From Chloracidobacterium sp. CP2_5A (lineage in GTDB: Bacteria > Acidobacteriota > Blastocatellia > Chloracidobacteriales > Chloracidobacteriaceae), in NCBI GenBank assembly GCA_002254845.1, contig NKPT01000027.1:1-44988 (forward strand): 44,988 nt of DNA, given 5' to 3'. The translations under genes were made by a program, and so were the position numbers. Below, in pieces: positions 15,885 through 37,212 of this stretch (positions are counted from its first letter, which is position 1; each line of letters begins with the position of its first letter). Under the pieces are notes generated by a model, which worked only from the letters and a program-made list of their open reading frames with translations, did no database searches and was not told the DNA's origin.

Positions 15885-16647
15885 CGAGCGTGGTGTCCGT
15901 TTGAATGTGGTGTCCGTTTGAATAAAGTCCATAGACGTGAATATACCGCTCCACCAGCGGCGGCACGAAGCGGGCGATGGAGCGCCCTTCGCTGACGGCC
16001 TGCCGCACATCCGTCGCCGACACGTCAATGGCGAACAGGTCGGTCAGAAAAACATGCATGCCGGCTTCGAGGTTGCTGGTCACCGCGCGCTGGCTGGCGC
16101 GGCCGCCCCGCAAGTCAATGACCCGCCCGACGCCATACTGTTCCGCCAGCGTGGCCAGGTCGCCGACTTCATATTTCGGGCGCGTCATCACGATCAGGTG
16201 GCAGCTATCCAGCAGCGTTTCATACCGCTCCCACTTGGGCAGACTCACGAACGAGTCCGCGCCCATCATAAAAAACAGATGCGCGTCAGGGCCATAGGCT
16301 TTCCGCAGCGTCGCCACGGTATCGGCCGTGTAGGGGCGCTCCGGGGCGAAGATTTCCACCATCGAGACCGTGGCGATGTCCATCTGAAGCGTCGCCAGCA
16401 CCGTCATCGCGTAGCGGTGATAGGCCGAGGTCACGCGGTCAAAGTCCTTGTGCGGCGGGCTGTAGGTCGGAATAAACAACAACTCGTCAAAGTTGAAGAT
16501 CGCGGCCAAGCTTTCCGCTAGGCGCAGATGCCCGTAGTGGATGGGATCGAACGTGCCGCCCAGCAGTCCGACCCGTCGGCGCGGCGCGGGCGTGTCCGCC
16601 GCGCGCGGCGCGGCTGGGCCGCTAGGCTTTCGGGTGCGCCCGGTCAT
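15874..16647 (-). CDS. nadD: Nicotinate-mononucleotide adenylyltransferase
   Basis: A 257-residue NadD, which adenylates NaMN in NAD synthesis. The nucleotidyltransferase motif [11 protein letters not shown] is at 30-40, preceded by about 25 Pro/Ala-rich residues. Other landmarks are [12 protein letters not shown], the MMGADSF strand, and the late IDVSATDVR equivalent of ISSTxIR near 218-226. The gene overlaps the xerC stop by 26 bases, and a GGAAG lies a few bases before its ATG. The last residues (after YGLYSNGHH) are odd: a 17-bp tandem duplication at 15890-15923 has replaced the normal end and moved the stop (see findings). Confidence 0.95.
15890..15923. repeat. 17-bp perfect tandem duplication at the nadD/rsfS junction
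   Basis: The 17-base unit GTGGTGTCCGTTTGAAT occurs twice head to tail (15890-15906 and 15907-15923, plus strand), identical in every base. It lies in the last codons of nadD. Removing one copy would make nadD end at a TGA overlapping the rsfS ATG as ATGA. Confidence 0.95.
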
Positions 16648-18864: not shown

Positions 18865-18947
18865 CTCGTCAACTGTGGCAGGCTGGCTGTTGAGCGATCC
18901 TTTCCCAGGCGGCCAACGGTTTGGCGCGCGCGGCTTTCCAAGCGCGT

Positions 18948-18974
18948 GTGGCGTGAAAACGCGTGGCGTGAAAA
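18948..18974. repeat. 15-bp tandem repeat
   Basis: GTGGCGTGAAAA occurs at 18948-18959 and again at 18963-18974, a 15-bp period with near-identical flanks. It lies immediately beyond the apparent stop of the broken ORF at 18975-19255. Confidence 0.8.
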
Positions 18975-28082: not shown

Positions 28083-28535
28083 CTAGCGTGACGACTCACG
28101 CCTCACTCGCTGGCGCTCGCCGTTGGAAAGCTCCGGCTTGGAAAGCTCCGCCGCAGCGTCTGCCTCGCGCGCCAGAAACGCCTGAAAGCGCTCCCCTTCG
28201 GCGTCGCGGTCGTGGAAGTCGCGCAGCGATTGACGAACTACGGCGCGAATGTCATAAATCATCGTCGCCACCACCGCCAACGCCAAAAGCGCGCAGATCA
28301 TAAGGTAGACCGCCAGTTGGGCTGGCGCGAATGACGAGCGGAACTCGCCAACCCCAAAGCCCGCCATCCCTGTGACGACCAACAACAGCCCGGCGCTCAA
28401 CAGCCGGCGACCCAGCCGCGCCCGCGCCGCATCGGACGCTTTGCCCGCCAGCCGCGCCGTGACATATCGCTGAATCTCAAGCCATGACAACGGCAGCAGG
28501 ATAATCCCGACCAAAATGAGCGGAAAGAAACCCAT
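28083..28535 (-). CDS. Small integral membrane protein, first gene of the kinase operon
   Basis: A 150-residue protein. Three hydrophobic segments are visible (FFPLILVGIILLPLSW, LLSAGLLLVVTGMAGFGVG, LAVYLMICALLALAVVATMI), followed by a charged cytoplasmic tail. The tail carries a 15-bp tandem duplication, giving ELSKP-ELSNG. GGGAGG lies 8 bases before the ATG at 28535, so that start is preferred over an upstream ATG at 28553. The kinase starts 25 bases after its stop. No family recognised; a partner or substrate of the kinase is a reasonable guess from position only. Confidence 0.7.
   Translation of the reverse strand: MGFFPLILVGIILLPLSWLEIQRYVTARLAGKASDAARARLGRRLLSAGLLLVVTGMAGFGVGEFRSSFAPAQLAVYLMICALLALAVVATMIYDIRAVVRQSLRDFHDRDAEGERFQAFLAREADAAAELSKPELSNGERQRVRRESSR
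28123..28152. repeat. 15-bp tandem duplication in a coding region
   Basis: TTGGAAAGCTCCGGC (28123-28137) is followed by TTGGAAAGCTCCGCC (28138-28152). It lies in frame in the tail of the small membrane protein and adds five residues. Confidence 0.85.
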
Positions 28536-29247: not shown

Positions 29248-30075
29248 CGCCCTGTTGGGCGGGATTTTGCGCTTTGGGCGAGCTTTCCGCGCCGCGGCGC
29301 TGAGAGGCGGTCGCGGAGCGTCAGGCGCGACCGCCCGCGAAGCGGACGGTTCCTTCCGAGGCAGCGGGAAGCGCGCTCGCGGCTGACCATATAGCTTTTG
29401 CAGAGCAATGCGGCGAAGCCCCCGGCGCGCGACGCTTCGCCACGGCGAAGGCGCGCGAGAGCCCGAAGCGCATTGATCGGTCGCCACCGCGATGGCTGAC
29501 CGCTGGGCGCTGAGCTTCGCATCGCCGCCGCGCCGGCTTCCGCCACGCTGCGCTTGATGAGGGGCGGAGCAAGTTCGGAAAACGGAAAAAGCTCGCCAAG
29601 CCCTGGCCCTTGTTACCAGCGCTTAGGCAAGCCTTTCGCTGGGGCAAGCCTTTCGCTGGGGCAAGCCTTTCGCTGGGGCAAGCCTTTCGCTGGCGAATCA
29701 GGGCTTTTCCAATCGAGCGATTCGGCTGCCGCCGGTTCGGTGTCCGAGTTCGCGCTTCTGCCGGCGCCGCGCTCGTCGCTGCTGGCGCGTCGGCCCTGCC
29801 AAGGCTTTGATGGCATTTCCTCGGCGCTGCCGAATGGCTGCTCTAACGACCCTGCCTGGCAGGCGAAGCTTGAGCCGCGCGGCAGAACCTGACGCTGCTG
29901 AACGCCTTCAGGCGTCGAAGGCGATTGACAACGCCGGGCAGGCGCGAGAGGTCTCGATTCGCGATGCCTCCAGCCCGCGGAATCTCTACAGCGCTCGCAG
30001 GGATAAGGGGCTCGACCAGCGATCAACAACGGATCAGCCACGCGTTCGGCGTCTTACCCGCGGGCGGCGACTTTC
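29248..30075. other. 828-base gene desert with a 17-bp tandem array
   Basis: No open frame in this interval looks like protein; the longest translations are Arg/Ala/Ser-rich shadows without conserved motifs. A 5-bp hairpin CGCCC-TGTT-GGGCG followed by GGATTTT sits right after the thioredoxin gene stop (29248) and may be a weak terminator. The only distinct structure is the four-copy tandem repeat at 29627-29694. No RNase P, SRP or tmRNA signature was recognised. Confidence 0.6.
29627..29694. repeat. Four-copy 17-bp tandem repeat
   Basis: The unit GCAAGCCTTTCGCTGGG is repeated head to tail at 29627, 29644, 29661 and 29678; the fourth copy differs only in its last base. It lies in the gene desert between two convergent transcription units. 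Confidence 0.97.
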
Positions 30076-31839
30076 TCACGGTCGCTGAAACCGCCAGCCG
30101 CCGCCGCGCATTGTCCAGCCAGGCGGGGCGGTTGCCTTCAGGCGAGCCATGATTTTGGGGACGTACATTTCGTTGTAGCGCAGCCGCGACAGCGCGTTGG
30201 GGCGCGTCGGATCGCCGTTCCAGCAGTGCTCGGCCCGGTCGCCGTAAAGCGTTTCGCCTTCGTACGGCGGATCGGCGGTCGCTTTGAGGAAGTCCTCGAC
30301 GAGATACACCGCGTTGTTGAGGTAGTAGTTGTCCATATCGCCGCAGTAGATGTGGATTTTTCCGCGGAGCTTCGGTCCGAGCGTCTTCCAGTTGCGGCGC
30401 AGAATGTCGCCCAAATCGTAATGCTCGCGCCAGTAGGCGGCTACCGACTTATCAATCGCGCCGGTTCGCTTGTCCCAAATCGGTTTCGGGTAGCCGTCGG
30501 GGCCGACCGGCGAATAAACCGCCTGCCAAATGTCCCACTGTCCGCCGGAGCGCGAGTTCGAGCCAAGCGCCAGCTCTCGTTGATTCATCTGCTGGATGGT
30601 CGATTGCAGGTGACCAAGGTAATCCCGCTTGCCCGGGCGCGGAACTTTTTTCCACGGCCCATCAAAGTAATAAGCGTTGGCGTCGTCGTAGATATTGACC
30701 GTCGTGTACGCGCGAAAGTCTATCGGATCGGGACAGGCCGCGAAGCAGCCGTTGAAATCTTCGGGGTAGAAAATCTGCGCCGCCAGCGCCTCCCAGCCGC
30801 CCGTCGAGCCGCCGTACGTAAATCGCGCCCAGCCCTGCCCGATGCAGCGAAAGCGTTTTTCGATTTCGGGGATCAGCTCGCGCATGATGGCGTCGCCGTA
30901 AGGCCCGACGTTCGCCGAGTTGACCGCGTAGGAATCATCGTAATACGGGTTGGCGTGCTGAATCTCGACAATGACCAGGCGAGGGAAGTCCGGGCTCGTC
31001 CAGGCTTTGTAAAAATCGTAGGCCGCCTGCTGCTGAATGCGGTTGTAGCCAGTCAGCTTGAAGCGCTTGCTGTAGTCGGGCTTGAGGTCAGGGTCGGGGG
31101 GCGTTTCGCGAAAGCCGTCAAAGGCGTAGGGAAAGTGCCCGTGAAACACGCAGAGCGGATAGCGCAGATCAGGGTTTTCATCAAAGCCCTCCGGCAGCAA
31201 GACGCAAGCGCCAAGCTCCATCGGGCGGCCCCAGAAGGCTGACAGCAACTGGCTGCGGATTGTAAAGCGCTTGATGTATTTCGTGTCCTTGGGCGGCGGA
31301 ATGGGCGGGATCGCCTGGTCAAGCGAAAACGCGAGCGCGTCGCCCCGGCGCGGATCGAGCGCGACTTCCCGCGGCTGGCTGTAGGCGTTGCCAGGCGCGC
31401 GATTCCACTGCTGGCCCTCGCCCCGATCCATCGGCAGCTTGACCACATGGCCGTCGCTGCGGCGGAAGGTCTCATAGCGATGAAATAAAACCTGCGCGCG
31501 ATAGTTGCCGGGCGGCACATCGGACAGACGCGCGAGCGGATAGCCGTCGGCTTGCAGGTCGAAGGTCACGACCTGTCCGGGCTGAACGTCGTTGACATCC
31601 ATCCCGAAAACTTGCTGCGTGTCGAGGTCCTCGCTGATTTGAAAGCGCGGCTCGGCGCTGGGGTCTTTTGAGAGAAGAAACAGCAGCCGCCCGTCGCAGG
31701 GCGCGCTGAAGCGCGCTTTGGGAAACACAACCTGAATCCTCACGCGCGGCGGCGGTTGTCGCGAGACGCCGAGAACGGCAACGCCGCCCCACAGCGACAG
31801 GGCGCAAGCGATGGCGAGCAAGCTTTGGCGCAGTAACAT
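30076..31839 (-). CDS. Exported alpha/beta-hydrolase (putative esterase)
   Basis: A 587-residue protein if it begins at the ATG at 31839, where a signal peptide starts (MLLRQSLLAIACALSLWGG). The N-terminal half carries a beta-rich region. The C-terminal half is an esterase of the enterochelin-esterase/Esterase_phd type: MELGACVLLPEGFDENPDLRYPLCVFHGH in pieces, then the nucleophile elbow YGGSTGGWEA and the late CGDMDNYYLNNA and RAEHCWNG with the acid and His. It is probably periplasmic or secreted; the substrate is unknown. The open frame continues upstream without a stop into a TfoX-like gene, which I treat as separate because a signal peptide would not work internally. Confidence 0.75.
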   Translation of the reverse strand: MLLRQSLLAIACALSLWGGVAVLGVSRQPPPRVRIQVVFPKARFSAPCDGRLLFLLSKDPSAEPRFQISEDLDTQQVFGMDVNDVQPGQVVTFDLQADGYPLARLSDVPPGNYRAQVLFHRYETFRRSDGHVVKLPMDRGEGQQWNRAPGNAYSQPREVALDPRRGDALAFSLDQAIPPIPPPKDTKYIKRFTIRSQLLSAFWGRPMELGACVLLPEGFDENPDLRYPLCVFHGHFPYAFDGFRETPPDPDLKPDYSKRFKLTGYNRIQQQAAYDFYKAWTSPDFPRLVIVEIQHANPYYDDSYAVNSANVGPYGDAIMRELIPEIEKRFRCIGQGWARFTYGGSTGGWEALAAQIFYPEDFNGCFAACPDPIDFRAYTTVNIYDDANAYYFDGPWKKVPRPGKRDYLGHLQSTIQQMNQRELALGSNSRSGGQWDIWQAVYSPVGPDGYPKPIWDKRTGAIDKSVAAYWREHYDLGDILRRNWKTLGPKLRGKIHIYCGDMDNYYLNNAVYLVEDFLKATADPPYEGETLYGDRAEHCWNGDPTRPNALSRLRYNEMYVPKIMARLKATAPPGWTMRGGGWRFQRP

Positions 31840-31902
31840 CGGAAGGCGATTCTCCGCAATCTGGTTTCGAGAGGTCTGGCTATCGCCCCGCGCGCGGGCG
31901 GC

Positions 31903-32228
31903 GGGCTTGGGGGGCGGCAGGGCATTCGCCGTCAGACGCGCCAGTTCCGACGCGAGTCGGCGGTCGTCGAGTTGAGCGTCGAGGATAACGTAGGGCTTCG
32001 CGCCTGGATACGGGCTGCCCAGCGTTGCCCCGGCGAGCCGCTCCGCCGTGGCCGGCGAGGGCTTCAGAAAGAACTGATTGTCGCAGACGAGGCCGATGAC
32101 TTTGCCGTCGCAGTAAATGGCGACTTCGCCAAGCATCTTTGTGGCCGCGATGTTTCCGGCGGCGCTGATTTGCTCAACAACGTAAGCGACTCGACAACGT
32201 AAGCGACAAAGCTCGCGTCGGATGCCAT
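31903..32228 (-). pseudogene. TfoX N-terminal-domain gene broken by a 17-bp duplication
   Basis: An ATG at 32228 with AGGGAGG 8 bases upstream opens MASDASFVAYVVE, then runs out of frame. The rest of a TfoX_N domain (MLGEVAIYCDGKVIGLVCDN, FFLKPSP, SPYPGAKPYVILDAQLDD, LPPPKP) is read in another frame from 32136. Between them two 17-base copies stand side by side (32174-32190 and 32191-32207). Deleting one copy restores VVEQISAAGNIAATKMLGEV and a complete TfoX_N protein. TfoX/Sxy domains in competence regulation are the best known; single-domain homologues are mostly uncharacterised. The frame runs on into the esterase without a stop codon. A sequencing error is possible but unlikely for an exact-length copy. 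Confidence 0.8.
32174..32207. repeat. 17-bp tandem duplication disrupting the TfoX-like gene
   Basis: Plus-strand TCAACAACGTAAGCGAC (32174-32190) and TCGACAACGTAAGCGAC (32191-32207) differ at one base. The length is not a multiple of three, so it shifts the reading frame. Confidence 0.95.
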
Positions 32229-32328: not shown

Positions 32329-34497
32329 CTAGCCGCTTGGAGGCGCGTCGCTTGGCAGCGCCTCCGCCTCGCTATCGGCGATGGCTTCCGGCGCGGCCTG
32401 GCTTTGCCGCGCAATCGCGAGATAGGCCGCCAAGTAAAGGGCCAACGCCAGAAGCGTCATCTTGCGCAGCCCGGCGTACATCGAGAGGTATTCAAGGCAG
32501 CCGCCAACCACCGCCCCAAGGATATTCGAGCCAAGCGCCGACGAGACATGACTCGCTTGCCGGAGCAGGTTGGAGAGGATGACGCCGGCGAAAAAGACCG
32601 GAAGCGCGAAGAGCGCGCCGCCCAAAATCCCGCGCGTCAGCAGCGGAAGCTGGTTGAGCGTTCCGGCGCCCAGATGCCAAATGGCGAGCAGGGAAAGGGC
32701 TAGCGGCGCAAACCAAGGGCGCAAGTCCGCATTCGGGCGCGCCATCACGAAAGCGTTCGCGGAAAGGGCCATGACCAGCACGCCCGCGAAAACCGAGGCG
32801 TTGACGACCCAAGTGGAGCCAAAAAGCAGGCTTAGCTCCGTCACCATGCGGGTTTCGAGCAACAGAAACGCCGCGCCCATCAAAAACAGCGGCCAGTCAA
32901 AGCGCCGGGCGGTCAGCAGATCCTTTCCGAAGACGCGCTGGACGCCACACGCCGCCGTGACCAGCAGCAGCCCAATCACGACCAAGTAGGCGTAAGGGAC
33001 GGCGCCCGGACGCAAATAAAGAAACGGCCAGTCATCGGTCGGCGTCCGCGCCGCCGGGGCGATGTCGAGCATGCCGACTGGAATCTCGATTGGAAACGCC
33101 ATTCTGGATTGCACTTTCGCCGGCGTCAGATTTTCGCCCACCAGAAAGGTCACGCCATGATTGTAGCCATGCGCGACAATCACCGGGGCCCGCCCGGTGG
33201 CCTCCGTGATGACGTTGTTGAGCCGCTCGACCATCCATCTGCCGGCCGCCACCGAAAACGACACCGACAGCAATCCGCCCGGCGCGACGTGCCGCCACCC
33301 CGAACGAATGCCTTCAACCGTGTAGAGATAGTTATCCAGACGCAGGGTTGACATAGCGGAGAACATCGCGTGCGAGTCCACGAGTCCATAGCAGACCACG
33401 TCATACTGATCGGCGGTGTTTTGCTCGAAGTAGGCGCGGGCGTCGTTGTTGATGAGTCGAACGCGCGGGTCGGCGTAGGGCTGTTCGGGATGCAACTGGC
33501 GTCCCAGGCGCAGAATAACCGGGTCAATCTCAACGCAGGTGACATGCTTGAAGCCCAAGCGCAGGGCCGCGGCCACGTCATTGCCGGCGCCAGCGCCGAT
33601 CGCCAGCGCGCGCGCTGATCTGTCCGCCACTCGAAAAGGCAGGTTGTAAGCGGCCTGCACCGGCGGGCGAACCGAGTTTTCCCTTCCCGCGGCGACAGCG
33701 CGGTCGGAGAGGTTGAGCAGGTATTGGTGAAAGTCGCGGTTGACGCTCAAGCGATACTCCGGCGGCATTCCAGCTTGCGGGGGCAGTTCCGGAAGACCAA
33801 CGTCCGCCACAACGTCAATCCGGTTGTACGGAGAAAATCGCGCGCCCTGCTGCGACCATCCAGCTAAGGCAATCGCCGCCGCGCCGAACCCAATCCACCA
33901 TCCGCGATGAATGAGCATCAGCGGGAGGACGCCGACGGCTAGCCAGACCAGCGGCGGCAAGTGAAGCGCCGCAATCGCCGTCATCGCCAAGACGCCCAAC
34001 AGCGAGCCGAGCAGGTCAACCGCGTAGGCGCGCAACGGCGGCATCCGCTCAAACCACCAGCCGACCGGGATTGCCGCAAATAGGAAAACGGCGGCAATCA
34101 GCCAGAACAGACCGAGAACCACGCCCACCGCGAAAAGAAATCCAACGCCCCCCCTGCTGATGTCCGCTCCCCACAAGCTGATGGAGGGGTCAGGAAACCC
34201 AAGGTCCATCAGACCGATGCGGTCGGAAAAAGCCAGCAGCGCCGCCAACGCGAAAAGCGTTGGGAAGGTCCACTTGAAAAGCGCCGGATGCTTGCGTCCC
34301 AGCGCCACTCCCAGCCCCATCCCCAGAAAAACGGCAATCAGCACGAGGTTGGCAAAATAGGCGAAGATGCGCACCTGCGCGCCAGTCCAGCGGATGAGCG
34401 CCAGCTCAAGCGCTAGGATGGCGAAGGTCGCCAAGCCGAGCGTCGCCGGCGACATCCGTCGCGCCCAGTCCGGAATCTGGGTTTGCGCGCCAGTCAT
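32329..34497 (-). CDS. Polytopic membrane protein with spermidine-synthase-like domain
   Basis: A 722-residue protein of three parts. About seven N-terminal membrane segments (FAILALELALIRW, FANLVLIAVFLGMGLGVALG and others) come first. A central soluble domain (about 280-500) has the SAM-binding core ALAIGAGAGNDVAAALRLGF, VEIDPVILRLG and NDARAYFEQ, typical of spermidine synthase-like aminopropyl/methyltransferases. About six C-terminal membrane segments follow. Proteins of this layout are widespread but uncharacterised; polyamine synthesis is not established for them. The ATG at 34497 has AAAGG upstream and is preferred over the frame extension to 34623, which overlaps the next gene. Confidence 0.82.
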   Translation of the reverse strand: MTGAQTQIPDWARRMSPATLGLATFAILALELALIRWTGAQVRIFAYFANLVLIAVFLGMGLGVALGRKHPALFKWTFPTLFALAALLAFSDRIGLMDLGFPDPSISLWGADISRGGVGFLFAVGVVLGLFWLIAAVFLFAAIPVGWWFERMPPLRAYAVDLLGSLLGVLAMTAIAALHLPPLVWLAVGVLPLMLIHRGWWIGFGAAAIALAGWSQQGARFSPYNRIDVVADVGLPELPPQAGMPPEYRLSVNRDFHQYLLNLSDRAVAAGRENSVRPPVQAAYNLPFRVADRSARALAIGAGAGNDVAAALRLGFKHVTCVEIDPVILRLGRQLHPEQPYADPRVRLINNDARAYFEQNTADQYDVVCYGLVDSHAMFSAMSTLRLDNYLYTVEGIRSGWRHVAPGGLLSVSFSVAAGRWMVERLNNVITEATGRAPVIVAHGYNHGVTFLVGENLTPAKVQSRMAFPIEIPVGMLDIAPAARTPTDDWPFLYLRPGAVPYAYLVVIGLLLVTAACGVQRVFGKDLLTARRFDWPLFLMGAAFLLLETRMVTELSLLFGSTWVVNASVFAGVLVMALSANAFVMARPNADLRPWFAPLALSLLAIWHLGAGTLNQLPLLTRGILGGALFALPVFFAGVILSNLLRQASHVSSALGSNILGAVVGGCLEYLSMYAGLRKMTLLALALYLAAYLAIARQSQAAPEAIADSEAEALPSDAPPSG

Positions 34498-34576
34498 GCC
34501 AAAACGCCTTTCTCGGCGGCGACCAACAGGCTTGCCGCCGCCTGCGTCAGGTCCGCTCTGAGCTTGCCGCGCGACG

Positions 34577-36427
<1,851 letters not shown>

Positions 36428-36963: not shown

Positions 36964-37212
36964 CTAGCGCGGCTGGGGCTTCGCCGCGCCGCTTGGCTCG
37001 GAAGCCGCCTTCCGATGATGACGCCGCGAATGATGACGCCGCGAATGACGGTGATGCTTCTTCGGGGATTGCGTCGTATTGCTTGCGCTAGAGGCGCCAG
37101 CTGCTGGCTTTGGTTGTTGAGCGTTGGCAGGTTCGACGAATCCAAGGGTGGTCAGGCCCAGGGCGAGCGTGGCGAAGAGGGCGATGGCAAGCTTTTTTAT
37201 CGTCGCGTTCAT
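36964..37212 (-). CDS. Small exported His/Arg-rich peptide
   Basis: An 82-residue protein. A clear signal peptide (residues 7-31, hydrophobic core LAIALFATLALGLTTLGF, cleavage likely after ANA) leaves a mature peptide of about 51 residues. The mature part has a Pro/Ala/Ser stretch and then a His/Arg/Lys block at 51-68 (KKHHRHSRRHHSRRHHRK). A 15-bp tandem repeat in the DNA generates the HHSRR units. AAAGGA sits 9 bases before the ATG, and a strong terminator follows. The composition suggests binding of metal ions or polyanions in the periplasm. The divergent neighbour is a heavy-metal RND operon, which supports the metal idea. No known family recognised. Confidence 0.75.
   Translation of the reverse strand: MNATIKKLAIALFATLALGLTTLGFVEPANAQQPKPAAGASSASNTTQSPKKHHRHSRRHHSRRHHRKAASEPSGAAKPQPR
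37015..37044. repeat. 15-bp tandem repeat encoding His/Arg units
   Basis: ATGATGACGCCGCGA occurs twice in a row (37015-37029 and 37030-37044) with a decayed third copy after it. It is in frame in the His-rich peptide gene. Confidence 0.92.

Follow-up and report, generated by a model that had tools for sequence, protein, structure and literature searches.

The window, that is, the whole stretch of 44,988 nucleotides that was analysed, contains a small TfoX-like gene placed between a membrane/spermidine-synthase-like gene and an esterase-like gene. The features of this locus, in the direction of reading, are as follows:

32329–34623, minus strand: membrane/spermidine-synthase-like gene, upstream, open throughout (PF01564, 28.9 bits against a cut-off of 22.9).
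32190–32228, minus strand: leading piece of the TfoX-like gene, whose translation, MASDASFVAYVVE, can be aligned to residues 1–13 of relatives.
32173–32206, minus strand: imperfect, frame-shifting 17-bp tandem duplication (copies 32173–32189 and 32190–32206, with an extra matching base at 32207).
31900–32190, minus strand: TfoX_N domain body of 97 codons, in the other frame (PF04993, E = 3e-12, 46.9 bits).
31840–31911, minus strand: stretch that begins with PKPAAR at the end of TfoX and runs up to the esterase start, with no stop in the TfoX frame (750-codon open frame).
30076–31839, minus strand: esterase-like gene, downstream, with a probable Met of its own at 31839, a signal-peptide-like segment (by eye) and a weak PF00756 match (18.6 bits, below the cut-off of 22).

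The stand-alone TfoX_N gene starts with an ATG at 32228–32226 of the minus strand, with GGGAGG just before it. In this frame (frame 0), the first 13 codons encode MASDASFVAYVVE, after which the translation diverges and ends at a stop after 54 residues. The body is found in a second frame, where it begins VAYVVEQISAAGN, and the loss of frame exactly at the two adjacent 17-base copies, which an initial annotation of this DNA had described, was thus confirmed. As a length of 17 cannot be divided by 3, the duplication at 32173–32206 shifts the frame. The match of the body to PF04993 lies above the cut-off of 30.1 bits, spans model positions 1–89 of 91, as expected of a whole domain, and is the sole match of this profile in the genome. 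Since the Pfam domain falls entirely within the second frame, the duplication cuts the body off only from the start codon and the first residues. The NCBIfam profiles gave no match to the body at E 0.01, and a search of solved structures returned VP1028 (2od0) alone, at E 1.4. The G+C content at the three codon positions of the body (0.69/0.48/0.77) is gene-like when compared with that of the upstream neighbour (0.66/0.48/0.76).

The downstream frame had also been taken as otherwise intact, which held for the domain itself and not for the end of the gene: no stop codon comes after the tail LPPPKPAAR, and the frame continues open for 750 codons into the esterase. With the frame change at 32173–32206 and no stop before the esterase, the TfoX_N gene is not one open frame from start to stop. 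The TfoX stop would thus appear to be missing, as judged against distant relatives. A stop is present between the TfoX tail and the esterase in another genus member (G002), in surroundings too decayed to tell the older state. The region 31884–31921, examined as a possible repeat, is G+C-rich and matches well at a single place in G002 (87%), its other matches being weak, and no weight was given to it.

The duplication was examined on its own terms. Tandem Repeats Finder, run on the window, reported an array at 32173–32207 with a period of 17 and 94% match, and the two copies are identical at 16 of 17 positions, one base being different. The duplication had been placed at 32174–32207, which is an equivalent register of the same 35-bp array, and its presence in the sequence was confirmed. 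When the window was randomised 200 times under a Markov model, no 17-bp tandem pair with at most one mismatch appeared, and a chance origin of the repeat at 32173 was therefore ruled out. Across periods 13–21, the same randomisations held on average 0.145 such arrays (maximum 2), and the real window holds six, three of them with period 17. A dispersed 17-base element was likewise ruled out: with up to two mismatches, the unit occurs in the genome at this site and at three single places, and nowhere else. The one base at which the copies differ leaves the residue unchanged in the TfoX frame, and the difference means that the duplication is not brand new or was imperfect from the outset.

Homologues of the gene carry the duplicated segment once. 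A tblastn search with the TfoX body against plasmids found 11 matching records among 72,556, with 36–50% identity and 93–99% of the body covered, and seven of the 11 were fetched. Each of the seven has an ATG exactly seven codons ahead of the matched segment and no duplication; a TfoX/Sxy gene is annotated at the place in six of them, the seventh record being without annotation there. In the same phylum, 15 loci were hand-picked from 21 listed matches (32 loci searched) and aligned; one of them (L136) does not span the segment, and all 14 rows that cover it have a single copy. Both the leading piece and the body match the same single segment of the relatives, so the second copy is extra. The comparison with relatives proposed in the initial annotation therefore bore out a one-copy gene: the repeat is not kept in relatives that have the gene (a single copy in all seven plasmid homologues that were fetched and in every one of the 14 covering rows from the phylum), and what is left of the gene in G002 does not include the region. 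The TfoX-like gene thus carries a disabling change where its homologues are open, as a pseudogene would.

The seven fetched plasmid proteins are stand-alone TfoX_N proteins of 106–113 residues, from plasmid records of Burkholderia, Pseudanabaena, Novosphingobium, Hymenobacter, Ca. Chlorohelix and Sporomusa. They resemble the present gene in their MAS or MAT start, in core motifs of the type M-GE, YCDGK-, LVCDN- and PYPGAKP and, in most, in an LPxPK-like end. Their genes are open from the ATG to a stop soon past the tail, whereas the present gene has its leading piece in a different frame and lacks a stop beyond its tail. On three of the seven plasmids, TfoX_N adjoins a tyrosine recombinase (L214, 558–673), a site-specific integrase (L216, 1–90) or a relaxase gene (L211, 533–676). 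There is a hint that this type of TfoX_N travels on mobile DNA, in a collection that consists of plasmids and is hence biased.

Short tandem duplications were found to be a wider feature of these genomes. Those with a period of at least 13 number six in the window (45 kb), five in 87,411 bp of other sequence from the same genome (the five stretches longer than 5 kb out of 20), 20 in G005 and 11 in G001, the last two counts being for 400 kb each. A copy number of 2.0–2.4, which is the expectation for single slippage events, was seen in 33 of these 42. The density in the window is about twice that of the 87 kb of other own sequence. A process specific to 17 bp was considered and rejected, period 17 being nearly absent outside the window: three arrays lie in the window, none in the 87,411 bp, one in the 400 kb of G005 and none in those of G001. 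The run of 17s in the window is probably a coincidence. Two exact 17-bp tandem copies are found at 15889–15924, and three 15-bp tandem duplications at 37014–37050, 18945–18974 and 28123–28152. Four exact 17-bp tandem copies lie at 29625–29695, shortly past the downstream end of the esterase, in a region without open frames of more than 173 codons; as a possible length-variable locus, this array is more promising than the TfoX duplication. When the six window duplications were aligned to loci of G002, G005, G001 and G004, no matches were obtained.

These counts also bear on whether the second copy is a product of the assembly. The genome could truly have one copy, and the metagenome assembler could have joined two strain variants or mis-resolved the site. 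The source assembly (3.41 Mb, 95% complete) is fragmented into 385 contigs, with 15 of 20 sampled contigs shorter than 700 bases, and its contamination of 1.88% makes strain mixing possible; the lone difference between the copies is synonymous, as it might be between two strain alleles. However, the genes next to it are long and uninterrupted, the window has five further short tandem duplications and such duplications are present in the two-contig genomes G001 and G005 as well, and the trace of the gene in G002 independently suggests that TfoX is dispensable. An assembly or consensus artefact is accordingly rated as unlikely.

The distribution of the gene was followed in related genomes, the genus sample being seven genomes, one per species. 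A published account describes the Chloracidobacterium genome as a pair of circular chromosomes, one of about 2.7 Mbp and the other of 1.0 Mbp (PMC8245765). G001, G004 and G005 consist of two contigs each that add up to 3.7 Mb, the main one measuring 2.64–2.68 Mb. The TfoX body was detected in three of 58 genomes including this one and in one of the seven within the genus; it was not found in the six other members (G001–G006) at E 0.001. In a phylum sample, PF04993 is present in 89 of 396 genomes. In G002, a trace of the 3' part of TfoX lies between the same two neighbours, with 69.6% identity over 125 columns and a local alignment score of 55, where 1000 randomisations reached 35 at most. The 5' half of this remnant is gone and further indels are present; over 64 codons its codon-position G+C is 0.75/0.70/0.72, so that the gene-like pattern is lost, unlike in the body here. 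In G005, which has the same two neighbours, nothing recognisable lies between them, the 39-base spacer being at chance level (498 of 1000 randomisations scored as high). The two neighbour genes are far apart in G001 and G004, and in G003 and G006 the upstream gene is absent and the esterase match is short and weak. A patchy, decaying accessory gene fits this distribution best, and arrival by horizontal transfer may be guessed from the patchiness. The claim that the event is recent agrees with our results, as the loss looks fairly recent because the body keeps its gene-like codon-position G+C.

The open frame into the esterase raised the question of whether the present form could work, either as a shortened TfoX domain made from an internal or unusual start or as a TfoX–esterase fusion. 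The frame is open for 750 codons and offers an ATG at 32136, its first ATG, GTG or TTG. This ATG lies inside the domain, at model position 14, and no Shine-Dalgarno-like sequence was seen by eye at a proper distance from it; a fusion would bury the signal-peptide-like segment. Most of the better same-class relatives match the esterase from about Met 31839 onwards, and, G002 and G005 apart, the better relatives have a match that starts at residue 98–133 of the long frame, in which Met 31839 is residue 100. Because the matches in relatives begin near the esterase's own Met, a working TfoX–esterase fusion is unlikely, and the esterase is probably not part of TfoX and starts at Met 31839. The spermidine-synthase-like gene adjoins the esterase in G002 and G005 too. 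In G002, the match of the esterase query extends into the TfoX part, from residue 45 with one TAG inside, and this extension is the TfoX remnant. In G005 the match runs from residue 70 with one TGA inside; its additional part falls on the end of the upstream gene and was taken as chance. Several loci of other groups match the query from residue 55–100, and no TfoX was found in those loci. A wider TfoX–esterase partnership was also rejected: TfoX-like sequence was found near the esterase at none of 104 loci from other genomes (L003–L106; tblastn, E 1), a search too weak for the decayed G002 remnant, itself among the loci. The same count stands against the present form being functional, which we regard as very unlikely.

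The initial annotation had further suggested that a copy-number change of 17 bp could turn the gene on or off. Simple-sequence contingency (phase-variable) genes have a tandem repeat near the 5' end with a unit that is not a multiple of three. The present gene is like them in both respects, the rest of its frame is open, and its TfoX_N relatives have the segment once. It differs from them in having two copies only, which have already diverged, in showing no variants among genomes sampled one per species, and in its decay in a relative, the remnant in G002 being the sole trace of the gene in a related genome. Moreover, the TfoX frame has no terminating stop, and these genomes contain comparable duplications at other sites. 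Among the genomes searched, which include seven of the genus at one per species, none showed this TfoX gene in a one-copy form. The reversible switch thus found no support, and a phase-variable TfoX gene appears highly improbable. We give still less credence to the fuller version, in which a horizontally acquired stand-alone TfoX_N gene gains and loses its duplication often enough in the population for an on/off switch.

A role in competence control had been drawn from the name of the domain. The TfoX/Sxy competence regulators of Vibrio and Haemophilus contain the TfoX_N domain, which this gene has in common with them. The combination of TfoX_N with TfoX_C that marks such regulators was not found: TfoX_N stands alone here, and TfoX_C (PF04994) was detected in none of the seven genus genomes by a search that was positive in 2 of 14 genomes, including E. 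coli, as control. ComEC-like PF03772 is present in all seven genus genomes, six of which have no detectable TfoX body. A link to competence control therefore found no support here.

These findings together suggest that the TfoX-like gene is probably a recent pseudogene, produced by the ordinary loss of an accessory gene, and that it would no longer give its product. The ancestor that this genome shares with G002 may have had a stand-alone TfoX_N gene between the spermidine-synthase-like gene and the esterase. A short tandem duplication, probably formed by replication slippage like the others in these genomes, would then have hit this small gene and separated the frame of its first 13 codons from that of the body, leaving no ATG, GTG or TTG in the body's frame ahead of the domain. 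Without selection, the gene would be undergoing loss, here with the duplication and a missing stop, and in G002 by loss of the 5' half and further indels. Counting against the loss, the gene-like G+C and the absence of a stop over 97 codons could mean that the decay is young and that sister strains have a working form, and slippage could in principle also remove one copy of a 17-bp tandem repeat. In the parts of the literature on TfoX or short tandem duplications that were available, no treatment of this case was found.

As it stands, the finding matters little, being a single case in which a short tandem duplication leads to the loss of an accessory gene. Should the same population also contain a one-copy form, the locus would offer a simple system for the rates at which such duplications are gained and revert, in a probable phototrophic genus of the Acidobacteriota whose member here is a probable hot-spring bacterium.
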